Source of the DNA: a virus
DNA: 58,461 nucleotides
Strand: one strand, 5' to 3'
Virus record (IMG/VR): IMGVR_UViG_3300044678_001332
Location: 1-58,461 of that record
Shown here: positions 459 to 7,245 of the stretch, in pieces
Layout: each line of letters begins with the position of its first letter
How positions within the stretch are numbered: position 1 is the stretch's first letter
The notes under the pieces: model-generated
What the model was told of the DNA's origin: nothing
Database searches by the model: none
What the model saw: only the letters and a program-made list of their open reading frames with translations
Made by a program: the position numbers and the translations under genes

Positions 459-720
459 GAAATATATCATTTAATATTTCTTCTTTTCTTTCAATATCAA
501 ACCAATACATAGTTGCAATACCTTTTACATCACTATAAAATGCATAACATTGTACTGAATCTAATAAATCTCTATGTCTATCAAGTTTATTACAAACAAG
601 ACTATCATTACTTATAACAAGTAAATTACATTCTTGGTTTATAATGTGAGTCTTTAATTTACTCTGTGAATAAGCACTTAAGCTTATCATTAATGTTAAA
701 ATAGTTATTATTCTTTTCAT
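442..720 (-). CDS. Small secreted protein with signal peptide
   Basis: A 92-residue protein whose N-terminus is a clear Sec signal peptide: MKR, a hydrophobic stretch (IITILTLMISLSA) and a likely cleavage after AYSQS. The mature part is about 72 residues with two or three cysteines (NQEC, VCNK, VQCY) that could form disulphides in the periplasm. No family is recognised. It overlaps the next gene downstream by 17 nt, so the two are probably co-translated. It begins just after the tRNA block and its terminator, so it may have its own promoter around 721-740. Confidence 0.65.
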   Translation of the reverse strand: MKRIITILTLMISLSAYSQSKLKTHIINQECNLLVISNDSLVCNKLDRHRDLLDSVQCYAFYSDVKGIATMYWFDIERKEEILNDIFHGAVY

Positions 721-739
721 GTTAATTAGTTTTCTTGTT

Positions 740-777
740 AATAAAAAATAAGTGGTAGCATTACACTACCACTTATT
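740..777 (-). terminator. Rho-independent terminator behind the tRNA genes
   Basis: A perfect 12-bp stem (AATAAGTGGTAG at 747-758 against 766-777) with a 7-nt loop. Read leftward it is followed by a T-rich run. It sits after the leftward tRNA block and before the secreted-protein gene. Confidence 0.8.
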
Positions 778-812
778 ACAAACACACAAACACTATATCC
801 CCATATAGTAGC

Positions 813-939
813 AGTCAGGACAGGAATCGAACCTGTATGGTAACTTATGAGTTGGACTTTCACCGTGTTTTTCAAGGTTACTCTATGTTACCTTTACTGT
901 TAACCCTTATTCATGCGTCTACCATTCCGCCACCTGACT
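813..939 (-). tRNA. tRNA-like gene, Leu-type D arm, with a ~43-nt oversized middle
   Basis: Read leftward, the ends form a perfect 7-bp acceptor stem (AGTCAGG/CCTGACT). The T arm is perfect (ACAGG TTCGATT CCTGT) and the D arm (GCG GAATGGTAGA CGC) is typical of tRNA-Leu. However, 78 nt lie between D and T arms where a long-variable-arm tRNA has about 35, so the gene spans 127 nt. No simple 5-bp/7-nt anticodon arm is visible. A CTCATAA heptamer next to GTTACC, with the complement GGTAAC 41 nt upstream, would make a CAU anticodon arm only if about 35 nt were removed. Isotype is therefore unresolved. It could be a tRNA with a small insertion, a pseudo-tRNA or a tRNA mimic. Confidence 0.6.
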
Positions 940-3602: not shown

Positions 3603-4100
3603 TTAAGCCATAGAAGAATAATCAATTTCTACTGGTTGGGGAGCTTGCCACACTTGTAATTTATTCCAAGATGATAAATCCATCGATGAATAAAGAGTTT
3701 CCATTTGTGGAAGTATTACATTATGACCTGTTGTGTTGTCACCCCATGACTTCTTGTACTCTTGATAATTCTCATGAGTAATCTCAGCAACATTTACGTC
3801 TTTACTGACATAAATATGTACTGATTTATTTTGTTCATAGCTGTAATTTACTTCTCTTCCAAAAGCATTAAAGCTAATGAAAGTAAATTTCCTATTGTTA
3901 CTATCAACAACAACCTGATTAATTACAGGTTCTTCATGAATACTTAACATTAATTCCATAGCAACTTCTGGATTAGGTGTTGCATATATTACCTTTAGTA
4001 AGTTATCAACATCCATTCCGCGATACTTAGACTCTAAAGCTGCTTTAAATACTTTAGAAAATTCTTGTTGATTGTTTTGATTGTTAGCTAATTTAGCCAT
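3603..4100 (-). CDS. Hypothetical 165-aa protein
   Basis: A soluble protein starting MAKLANNQNNQQEFSKVFKAAL. Residues 1-55 are helical. The middle is beta-rich (INQVVVDSNNRKFTFISFN, NKSVHIYVSK). The end is Trp- and Pro-containing (SSWNKLQVWQAPQPVEIDYS). No recognised family. It is the first protein gene leftward of structured RNA block A, with about 30 nt between the block edge and its start, so the RNA may act as its leader. Confidence 0.5.
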   Translation of the reverse strand: MAKLANNQNNQQEFSKVFKAALESKYRGMDVDNLLKVIYATPNPEVAMELMLSIHEEPVINQVVVDSNNRKFTFISFNAFGREVNYSYEQNKSVHIYVSKDVNVAEITHENYQEYKKSWGDNTTGHNVILPQMETLYSSMDLSSWNKLQVWQAPQPVEIDYSSMA

Positions 4101-4133
4101 TTTATTTGTGGTTTAAAAGGTTACAAAAAAATT

Positions 4134-4691
4134 AGTTGTAATACTACTACTGTGGAGATCAACCCACCCAACTCTATAGTTATATCACCTGAATATAACT
4201 CCTATCCTCGTAGTATTACAACTATAATTGGTTGTTAAGTTACCAACTTAGCTGCAGTGATTAAGTATTTCAACTTAATTTACATTACTCCAGATTTATA
4301 CCCTGCTATATCTGGTAAACAGTTAAAACACCTAAAACTTTGATAGAGTACAGTAAGAGTTCTCTATTGTACTTTCATTCTTACTACCTTAACAGCTTCC
4401 TTTGTGCATTTCTACATCAACATCAGAGTTTCAGCTAATTAAGCTAAGGAGTATAAGACCGACCTTACACTAACTTGTAATTAAATCTCAAAATATACCT
4501 TATAGGTGCTGAATGAGTATTACAATATTGTTAGTCTATCAAAGAATTAGGTGTTGTTTGCACTCAGTTGTAGTCCGCTAGATGTGTTAGTAAGGAAATA
4601 CCTATACTACAACTGTTAACCATAAGGTTAGTGCAAATGTGAAACAGGTGAGAGCAGAGCCACTAAATAGTGGATGCTCTACAACCTGCAG
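4134..4691 (-). ncRNA. Candidate large structured RNA, block A (~560 nt)
   Basis: No convincing reading frame exists here, but perfect inverted repeats are dense. There are 15 bp (4134-4148 with 4210-4224), 7 bp (4260-4266 with 4273-4279) and 6 bp (4290-4295 with 4310-4315). A 7-bp outer stem TTTGCAC/GTGCAAA (4557-4563 with 4631-4637) encloses a 9-bp stem (4566-4574 with 4606-4614) and TAACC-ATAA-GGTTA. A nested hairpin with CCACT/AGTGG lies near 4646-4688. Strand is inferred from the leftward genes on both sides. Large ornate phage RNAs near tRNAs (ROOL, GOLLD classes) have similar size, but I cannot assign a class. Alternatives are a riboswitch-like leader or a decayed gene region. Confidence 0.55.
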
Positions 4692-4696
4692 AACTT

Positions 4697-5059
4697 CTAA
4701 ATTAATCCATAATTCTCTGGATTATCTAAAGCCATTTGTGCCATATATTCTATGGCTGGATAACTCACAGTTATTTCAAAGAACTGTAATAATCCTATCT
4801 CTTCAGCCTGAAGTATAGTTGTTCCTTCAGGTAGTCTCCCGCCCATAAACTGAGCAACATATAAAGTGTCTTTATTAGACAACTTTACATTTATTCTATT
4901 CATGGGAACACCTAAATGATCAGCAAGGTCTTGATGACCAATAGCTGATTGGCATTCATTAAAGTTGATATGTTCCTTTTTAATAGGAACAACTTCAATA
5001 GTTGCAACGCTATCTATAAGCATTTGCAACGAAAACGCATTTCCAATGATTTTTTTCAT
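4697..5059 (-). CDS. acrIII-1: AcrIII-1 family ring nuclease (anti-type III CRISPR, DUF1874)
   Basis: A 120-residue protein, the usual length of the family. It shows the DUF1874 landmarks: NAFSLQML at residues 7-14, SAIGH with His42 at the position of the catalytic His of archaeal virus AcrIII-1, VKLSNKDTLYVAQ, GGRLPEGTTIL, and EEIGLLQFFEITV near the end. Known members are dimers that rapidly cut cyclic tetra-adenylate (cA4), the second messenger of type III CRISPR, and so shut off Csx1/Csm6-type effectors. By inference this phage meets a type III CRISPR system that signals with cA4. The gene sits between two structured RNA blocks. Confidence 0.88.
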   Translation of the reverse strand: MKKIIGNAFSLQMLIDSVATIEVVPIKKEHINFNECQSAIGHQDLADHLGVPMNRINVKLSNKDTLYVAQFMGGRLPEGTTILQAEEIGLLQFFEITVSYPAIEYMAQMALDNPENYGLI

Positions 5060-5099
5060 TGTTTTAAGATTTAAAAAGTTAGTAAAAAATGGAATTCCA

Positions 5100-5765
5100 C
5101 CACATGTGATAACGTACTAGTTTATCTCTGATAAGTATGACTTATCTATGCCTTTCTGATATAGTATTACTATACGTGAGTGTAAACTTCTAACCTTGAA
5201 CCTGTATCCCAACAGAGGCTTCTTCGTAGTTTTAATATCTCAGTCCTTACACCGACTTTGACAACTATGCTTAAACACAACAACCACATTTCGCAGTTAT
5301 TACATATACACATAGACCTTCAGCTTTAAAGTTAAGCTAGAACTCCAGATTATAAAATGTCTGGTCATTTGATTTATTATACTCCATTACAAAACCCATA
5401 AGGATTAAATTACATGTAATATAGAGAGTGGTTATCCTGTACACAGCACCACTAAACAACCCCATTAATTTATAAGTGAATGGACACTATACATAGTTTA
5501 CTCTATGTACCCTTATTGCTAAGGTAATTGCCCCTCTGCACTCAATTGTAATAAGGTTTATTCTCTACGCACTGATGATTAGGTCGTCCTATAAATAGAA
5601 GTCTAATCATACACACTATTAGCTAAATAAACATTGGCCAACTCTTACACAAACAATATGTGCAGTTCTCACCTTTATATTACAACTGCTCACCCTTGGG
5701 AAGTGAGTTATGGTGCATTAGCAATGTGCTCTTACTAAACTCACAACATGTGAGAACCTAGGAGC
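5100..5765 (-). ncRNA. Candidate large structured RNA, block B (~665 nt), related to block A
   Basis: A gene-free stretch with many perfect inverted repeats. They include 7 bp (5130-5136 with 5140-5146), CCAGA/TCTGG (5345-5349 with 5360-5364), and 7 bp TACATAG/CTATGTA (5490-5496 with 5503-5509). Others are CTGCAC/GTGCAG (5536-5541 with 5660-5665) enclosing 8 bp ATGATTAG/CTAATCAT (5575-5582 with 5603-5610), and 8 bp GTTCTCAC/GTGAGAAC (5665-5672 with 5750-5757). Segments ACTCCAGATT-ATA and TGCACTCA-TTGTA recur in block A with the same adjoining hairpins, suggesting duplicated copies of one RNA class. Strand inferred from context. Confidence 0.55.
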
Positions 5766-5781
5766 AATGGTTTTTGGCAAT

Positions 5782-6162
5782 TTAAATACTTGATTTAGAT
5801 AGATATAATTCCATACCAATTTTCATCTTATTAAATTTAGGTGAAAATATAATTTCAGGATATCTGCAATACTTAAATATAACTTCTAATTTCTTTTTAT
5901 CAAAGAATTCAGAGTATATTGTAATATCACTGTAATCATCTTCATCAGATTCAATGTGTCCTTTTAATTCACCATTACATTGGTTAATAAGGTAAGACAA
6001 AACCTGTTTTAAATCATCATTTTTAATGAGATTCAAGATTTCTTGTGTTTGATCAATTGTGTTCACGTTTTTTGAATTGAGGATTAGTGCTATATATACT
6101 ATAATGTTCCAACAATAGCACTTAGCTGGAAACATGTCAAATTCTATCCTTTTGAATACCAC
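5782..6162 (-). CDS. Hypothetical 126-aa protein
   Basis: The N-terminus has a hydrophobic stretch (CYCWNIIVYIALILN). It is followed by a helical part (TQEILNLIKNDDLKQVLSYLINQ), an acidic loop (ESDEDDYSD) and a C-terminal part with KLEVIFKYCRYPEIIF. The hydrophobic start could be a membrane anchor, or the true start may lie at Met10. No family recognised. It precedes structured RNA block B in the leftward direction. Confidence 0.5.
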   Translation of the reverse strand: MVFKRIEFDMFPAKCYCWNIIVYIALILNSKNVNTIDQTQEILNLIKNDDLKQVLSYLINQCNGELKGHIESDEDDYSDITIYSEFFDKKKLEVIFKYCRYPEIIFSPKFNKMKIGMELYLSKSSI

Positions 6163-6951: not shown

Positions 6952-7245
6952 ATGATTATGTATGAACCACACCCTAAAGGTATTTTAATTGAGTACAAAG
7001 AATTAGAGAAAACATCTACTGGGGTATACTTACCCAATGGTACACAGTCTTCTGATGTAGAAGAGTATAATGGTGATGTTATTATTGCTGTAGGTAAAGA
7101 TGTTGAACTTTACCAACCTGGAGATAAAGTAATGTTTTTCCCACATTCAATGCCTACTAGTTTTGAAGGTAAGACTCACGATGGAGGTAAACAAAAGTAT
7201 CAGTTATTCAGAGAAGCAGATGTTGCTTGTAAAGTAATGTTATGA
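6952..7245 (+). CDS. GroES-like co-chaperonin (Cpn10)
   Basis: A 97-residue protein, the normal Cpn10 length. It shows the Cpn10 pattern: PKGILIEYKELEKTSTGVYLP (first strands and start of the mobile loop), then NGDVIIAVGKDVELYQPGDKVMFFP (central VxAVG and GDxVxF strands), then YQLFREADVACKVM (final strand). Phage co-chaperonins such as T4 gp31 form a heptameric lid on host GroEL and help fold the capsid protein. The same role is likely here because it opens the rightward arm ahead of the head genes. A second ATG two codons in is also possible. It overlaps the next gene as ATGA. Confidence 0.75.
   Translation: MIMYEPHPKGILIEYKELEKTSTGVYLPNGTQSSDVEEYNGDVIIAVGKDVELYQPGDKVMFFPHSMPTSFEGKTHDGGKQKYQLFREADVACKVML

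Follow-up and report, generated by a model that had tools for sequence, protein, structure and literature searches.

M3, a conserved RNA element in two noncoding blocks of the early arm of a crAss-like phage

The question raised by this locus is whether two neighbouring noncoding blocks of a phage genome contain copies of one structured RNA and, if they do, what that RNA may contribute to phage development. The window, which is the whole stretch of DNA analysed here, corresponds to a linear viral record of 58 kb. It is assigned to the crAss-like phages by its muzzle protein (PF25731) together with its TerL, portal and major head protein families. The genes that flank blocks A and B (Table 1) are small and leftward (minus strand), and the rightward genes begin at 6952.

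Two blocks with little in common

Known RNA families do not account for the blocks. When the window is searched with the Rfam 15 covariance models at the gathering threshold, the sole match is a tRNA; under lax limits, nothing in blocks A and B falls under an E value of 0.2, and what lies above that value is a set of sub-threshold matches to eukaryotic snoRNA or sRNA models. (A tRNA-Arg (TCT) is present in the early arm of the window, at 1001-1073 on the minus strand.) Block A folds much better than its shuffled versions (z of -5.5 and -4.1), and block B as a whole does not (z of -0.5 and -1.3).

A preliminary description had read block B as a second, duplicated copy of block A, on the basis of short strings that the two have in common. 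These strings are indeed where they were said to be: ACTCCAGATT at 5342 and 4287, and TGCACTCA at 5537 and 4559. Comparing A and B with each other alone, however, gives a likeness within chance. The Smith-Waterman score of the pair is reached by 17 of 300 shuffles, two 10-mers are shared against 1.4 expected, and the top local alignment is simply the AT-rich motif that lies ahead of start codons. Homology of the whole blocks is rejected because their similarity is not above that of shuffles. In addition, the CCAGATT hairpin (ACTCCAGATT), proposed as a common element, is absent from the corresponding blocks of relatives. The exception is L007, whose block A is nearly identical to that of the window and which keeps this hairpin.

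What the blocks do have in common is a single element, M3. A structured RNA class whose helices covary is represented once in each block, so that part of the duplication claim stands; the homology is confined to M3, and the rest of the two blocks is not homologous. The preliminary description was thus correct in seeing an RNA class here, but its reasons were partly mistaken and it took the wrong strand, since the likely sense strand is the minus strand and not the plus strand on which the blocks had been read.

Table 1. Coordinates of features in the window and in related loci
Feature	Position	Strand	Remarks
Block A	4101-4696		between leftward genes 3603-4100 and 4697-5059
AT-rich motif TTTTTTnnTAACYYTTTAAA	4110..4129	-	ahead of start codon, gene 3603-4100
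M4, ~225 nt noncoding module with complementary ends	4328..4554	-	96-99% identity, flanks differ
M3 copy A, short-P2 subtype	4559..4635	-	identical copy in L007; model matches
M1, three-part hairpin	4641..4689	-	two pairs with double changes, 8 sequences
Block B	5060-5781		between leftward genes 4697-5059 and 5782-6162
AT-rich motif TTTTTTnnTAACYYTTTAAA	5068..5087	-	ahead of start codon, gene 4697-5059
M3 copy B, long-P2 pseudoknot subtype	5537..5717	-	consensus match, covariation, model built without window
M3-B P1	5713-5717 with 5537-5541	-	
M3-B J1/2	5708-5712	-	
M3-B P2	5703-5707 with 5689-5693	-	
M3-B L2 UUCCCAAGG	5694-5702	-	
M3-B P3	5678-5688 with 5543-5553	-	
M3-B variable insert	5554-5677	-	
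M3-B 3' junction	5527..5536	-	GAGGGG 5531-5536, then CAAT 5527-5530
M2, hairpin with internal loop	5719..5775	-	8/13 pairs with double changes, 15 sequences
Hatchet ribozyme (RF02678)	L091 5635-5767	+	at or above gathering score
Hatchet ribozyme (RF02678)	L096 6387-6553	+	at or above gathering score
Hatchet ribozyme (RF02678)	L037 5852-5983	-	at or above gathering score
Hatchet ribozyme (RF02678)	L031 record (G033) 670-825	-	at or above gathering score

Detection, distribution and predicted fold of M3

Relatives of the window were collected by protein-based searches, and their intergenic regions have short conserved islands in common with A and B. Exact patterns of the two halves of M3 occur in at least 120 and at least 119 stretches of viral contigs, and among the matches listed both halves lie close together on many contigs. 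A descriptor gathered 132 matches, a few of which are palindromic or overlapping readings of one place. A first covariance model (R1), built from 44 sequences that include block B and the near-identical L007 copy of A, finds both copies in the window (E values of 1.8e-7 for A and 4.2e-7 for B). A second model (R2), for which 20 sequences were used and the window, L007, L013 and L032 were left out, places B first (2.3e-6) and A second (5.9e-6), with the next match at 0.37. Because the insert of copy B is long, the models align this copy correctly in its 5' half only; the 3' half (5531-5553) was assigned by its match to the consensus. The insert of copy A (27-31 nt) is skipped by the model.

The 3' pattern of M3 is found in 27 of 30 records, the same 27 that have a homologue of TerL, 24-55% identical to that of the window. 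These 27 long genomes have one to three copies, usually one, and in all 27 M3 lies on the strand opposite TerL, that is, with the early arm; a reversed control pattern gave no match in the same 30 records. The crAss muzzle family is matched in 26 of 33 records of an overlapping set. (Three records retrieved with a 17-mer of another module, M2, have neither M3 nor a TerL match and were set aside as probable chance matches.) Among the cultured phages, plasmids and Rfam families searched, no match to M3 was found: R1 gives a best E value of 0.25, which is not significant, in 13 phage records, mostly cultured or gut Crassvirales, and blastn with a 44-nt core gives chance-level matches in phages and none in plasmids. 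One exact match among species genomes lies on a 4.6 kb MAG contig, possibly phage. No paper on structured RNAs in crAss-like phages, or describing M3, was found in the literature searched, and no Rfam family corresponds to it. As judged by comparative sequence analysis, M3 is a conserved RNA element of environmental crAss-like phages, with one copy each in blocks A and B.

On the strand of the leftward genes, the 5' half of M3 has the order P0 (variable)-UUAA-UGCAC-CAUAA-P2-UUCCCAAGG-P2'-CAGUUGUAAUA; it continues with a variable insert-UAUUACAACUG-A-GUGCA-GAGGGG-P0'. The homologous part comprises about 65 conserved nt plus the insert. The predicted fold is a three-way junction of P1 (UGCAC/GUGCA), the P2 hairpin and P3 (CAGUUGUAAUA/UAUUACAACUG), and all three are present in both blocks. 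A stem opened by TGCACTCA and closed by GTGCA some 70-120 nt away had been proposed for each block. This holds in A (GTGCA at 4631-4635); in B, the GTGCA conserved in relatives is that of P1, about 180 nt off, and not the nearer one at 5660-5664 (a distance of about 120 nt).

Covariation supports this fold. In the 44-sequence alignment, 90.6% of cells are paired and 16 pairs show double changes; the covariation score is reached by none of 500 shuffles, a figure that is not a probability because the sequences are related. All five pairs of P2 have double changes, and each is formed in 96 or 97 of the 97 long-P2 copies, with at least two pair types. P1 and much of P3 are invariant, contribute no covariation, and could be conserved as DNA too. 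P0 is partly supported, with 58% of cells paired (44 sequences); in copy B, CAAT (5527-5530) can pair with AUUG (5722-5725). The P3 insert (32-166 nt) has no common sequence, no clear conserved motif or strong structure (mean folding z of -0.9; complementary strand, -0.8), and no tRNA was found inside any insert.

The A and B copies are different subtypes. Long-P2 copies have an L2 loop of the form UUCC[C/A]AAGG paired with GA[G/U]GG, as found in block B. The loop sequence UUCCA goes with GAUGG in 6 of 7 copies, UUCAC goes with GAGUG in both of its two copies, and UUCCC goes with GAGGG in nearly all remaining long-P2 copies. These compensating changes argue for a predicted loop-junction pseudoknot, in which L2 (UUCCC) pairs with GAGGG just 3' of P1. 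In copy B, on the basis of the same double changes, GGGG (5531-5534) would pair with UCCC of L2 (5698-5701). The short-P2 subtype has no pseudoknot, and block A contains neither UUCCCAAGG nor GAGGGG, both of which are present in block B; rather, with modest support, the 5' flank of this subtype tends to pair with the 3' strand.

Companion modules in a shuffling region

M3 does not stand by itself in these blocks; M1 and M2 are repeatedly found just 5' of it. M2, a second covarying RNA at the 5' end of block B, lies directly 3' of the stop codon of gene 5782-6162 and 5' of M3-B, and in relatives it is usually 15-20 nt ahead of a start codon. M1 lies directly 3' of the stop codon of gene 4697-5059 and 5' of M3-A; with weaker support, it occupies in block A the place of M2 in B. 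The AT-rich motif occurs without mismatch at three sites only in the window (5087, 4129 and 3344, minus strand), each just before a start codon, and is promoter-like only in its position. (In L008, a close relative with no detectable copy of M3, a 1.2 kb hairpin-rich noncoding block at 4141-5328 on the minus strand is flanked by M1 and by the AT-rich motif of the gene that, in the window, comes after block A.)

Some of these modules move. M4 has matches in L029 (3880-4121) and L046 (5179-5405), and it is 96% identical in a phage with only 52% TerL identity. Since the matches are 96-99% identical to the window despite differing neighbours, M4 has probably moved recently. In L007, which is nearly identical to the window elsewhere, block A is kept at 98% between different genes and the breaks fall at its edges, so block A has moved as a unit. 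Together, the moves of M4 and of block A indicate that genes and RNA modules shuffle in this region, which is a mosaic of both.

Other RNAs occur in the same region of related phages. Of 40 related genomes, 4 have a hatchet ribozyme (RF02678) above the cut-off in the early arm (Table 1); those of L091, L096 and L037 share the strand of M3 and lie about 1 kb 5' of it. Neither the window nor M3 matches this model. (L094, a locus with M1, M2 and M3, has a tmRNA match of 63 bits, against a gathering score of 47, at 5468-5866 on the minus strand.)

A predicted role in early transcripts and its alternatives

Within the early arm M3 occupies spacers, many of them short, and the first gene on the opposite strand (the divergent boundary) is usually 0.1-6 kb away. 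Of 126 copies, 36 are followed at 30-59 nt by the start codon of an open frame and 50 have none within 200 nt downstream, which indicates that M3 is not simply a leader. The genes downstream are diverse, and no fixed neighbour was found: even the most widespread gene family lies within 4 kb of M3 at no more than 21 of the 115 loci. On these grounds a riboswitch dedicated to a single gene or pathway is rejected, and the lack of a fixed neighbour fits a general cis element instead.

The likeliest reading, still a tentative one, is that M3 is a conserved RNA element that acts in cis in early transcripts. Transcribed within the early leftward mRNA, M3 would be a folded landmark for a protein, for which RNA polymerase and an RNA-processing factor are possible candidates; once bound, this protein would influence how the early transcript is elongated, processed or given its 3' end. 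These transcripts would also contain M1 and M2 as additional small elements, and the blocks would be mosaics in which early genes and such elements are shuffled. Covariation, the match of the window-free model, strand bias, early-arm position, occurrence free of particular neighbours, the recurrence of M1 or M2 5' of M3, and the move of block A as a whole in L007 all support this reading. Against it stand the invariance of P1 and of much of P3, the copies that have no near start codon, and L008, which does without M3. The proposal of action in cis draws on position, by analogy with the put RNA of phage HK022, which acts on E. coli RNA polymerase (PMC9378689). Like put, M3 would be a short structured element of early transcripts that is not bound to one gene, a likeness that is a functional analogy only; unlike put, it has a pseudoknotted junction and a variable insert. 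Its predicted place in these transcripts follows from its position in the early arm.

A rather doubtful alternative sees M3 as the core of an independent noncoding RNA, released from the early transcript by cleavage or expressed from a separate promoter, which would act in trans on a host or phage target with the P3 insert as its specificity region. The usual single copy per genome, the absence of a fixed neighbour and the variable distal insert would suit such an RNA. However, no promoter or terminator of its own has been identified, many copies occupy short spacers between genes, and the inserts lack a common sequence and show little excess structure. It is unlikely that M3 is instead a self-cleaving ribozyme or a nuclease processing site at which the early transcript is cut. 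The compact pseudoknotted junction, with its tolerance of large inserts, and the hatchets that precede M3 on its strand in three phages, or lie in the early arm of others, point this way, but M3 matches no Rfam ribozyme, has few conserved unpaired nucleotides beyond L2, and conserves whole helices (P1 and P3) in sequence. Sequence conservation of whole helices is unusual for small ribozymes.

Less probable again is a role as DNA, in which M3, folded in single-stranded DNA, would be a structure of the replication origin or a recombination site for the shuffling of early genes. Inverted repeats are conserved in P1 and P3, inverted-repeat variants without P2 exist, the divergent boundary is near, and the neighbourhood is one of shuffling. 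On the other hand, G-U exceeds A-C on the gene strand in P2 and P3 (23 versus 7), a bias that favours RNA, and the breakpoints between the window and L007 lie at the block edges, not at M3. Finally, chance as the source of the A/B similarity, suggested by the pairwise comparison and the ordinary folding of B, is very improbable in the face of more than 100 covarying copies in other phage contigs and a significant window-free model; with the relatives in hand it is refuted for M3, and it is still the best reading of the CCAGATT hairpin.

As a putative RNA element of early transcripts, M3 can be set beside other phage systems. The PeSLs, promoter/stem-loop cassettes of T4-type phages (Arbiol 2010, Comeau 2014, cited in PMC4503421), are likewise intergenic stem-loop modules where genes shuffle; M3 differs in being larger and pseudoknotted and in its one to three copies per genome, and the AT-rich motif is no more than a candidate promoter. 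GOLLD and ROOL (PMC12286853) resemble M3 as phage-encoded structured RNAs with variable regions. M3 is small in comparison, and the window does not match the GOLLD and ROOL models of Rfam.

Of the phages known, the Crassvirales are among the most abundant. The hatchets and mobile RNA modules near M3 point to an RNA-rich control region, which was not found described in the literature searched. M3 would represent a new class of functional RNA if it does bind RNA polymerase or cleave itself; that M3 is a cis RNA which reprograms the RNA polymerase of phage or host in early transcription, or a new self-cleaving ribozyme, alongside hatchets and small RNAs in a shuffling early region, is a speculative prospect. 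With its defined fold and strand, M3 offers a concrete handle on the control of early transcription in crAss-like phages, across TerL identities down to 24%.
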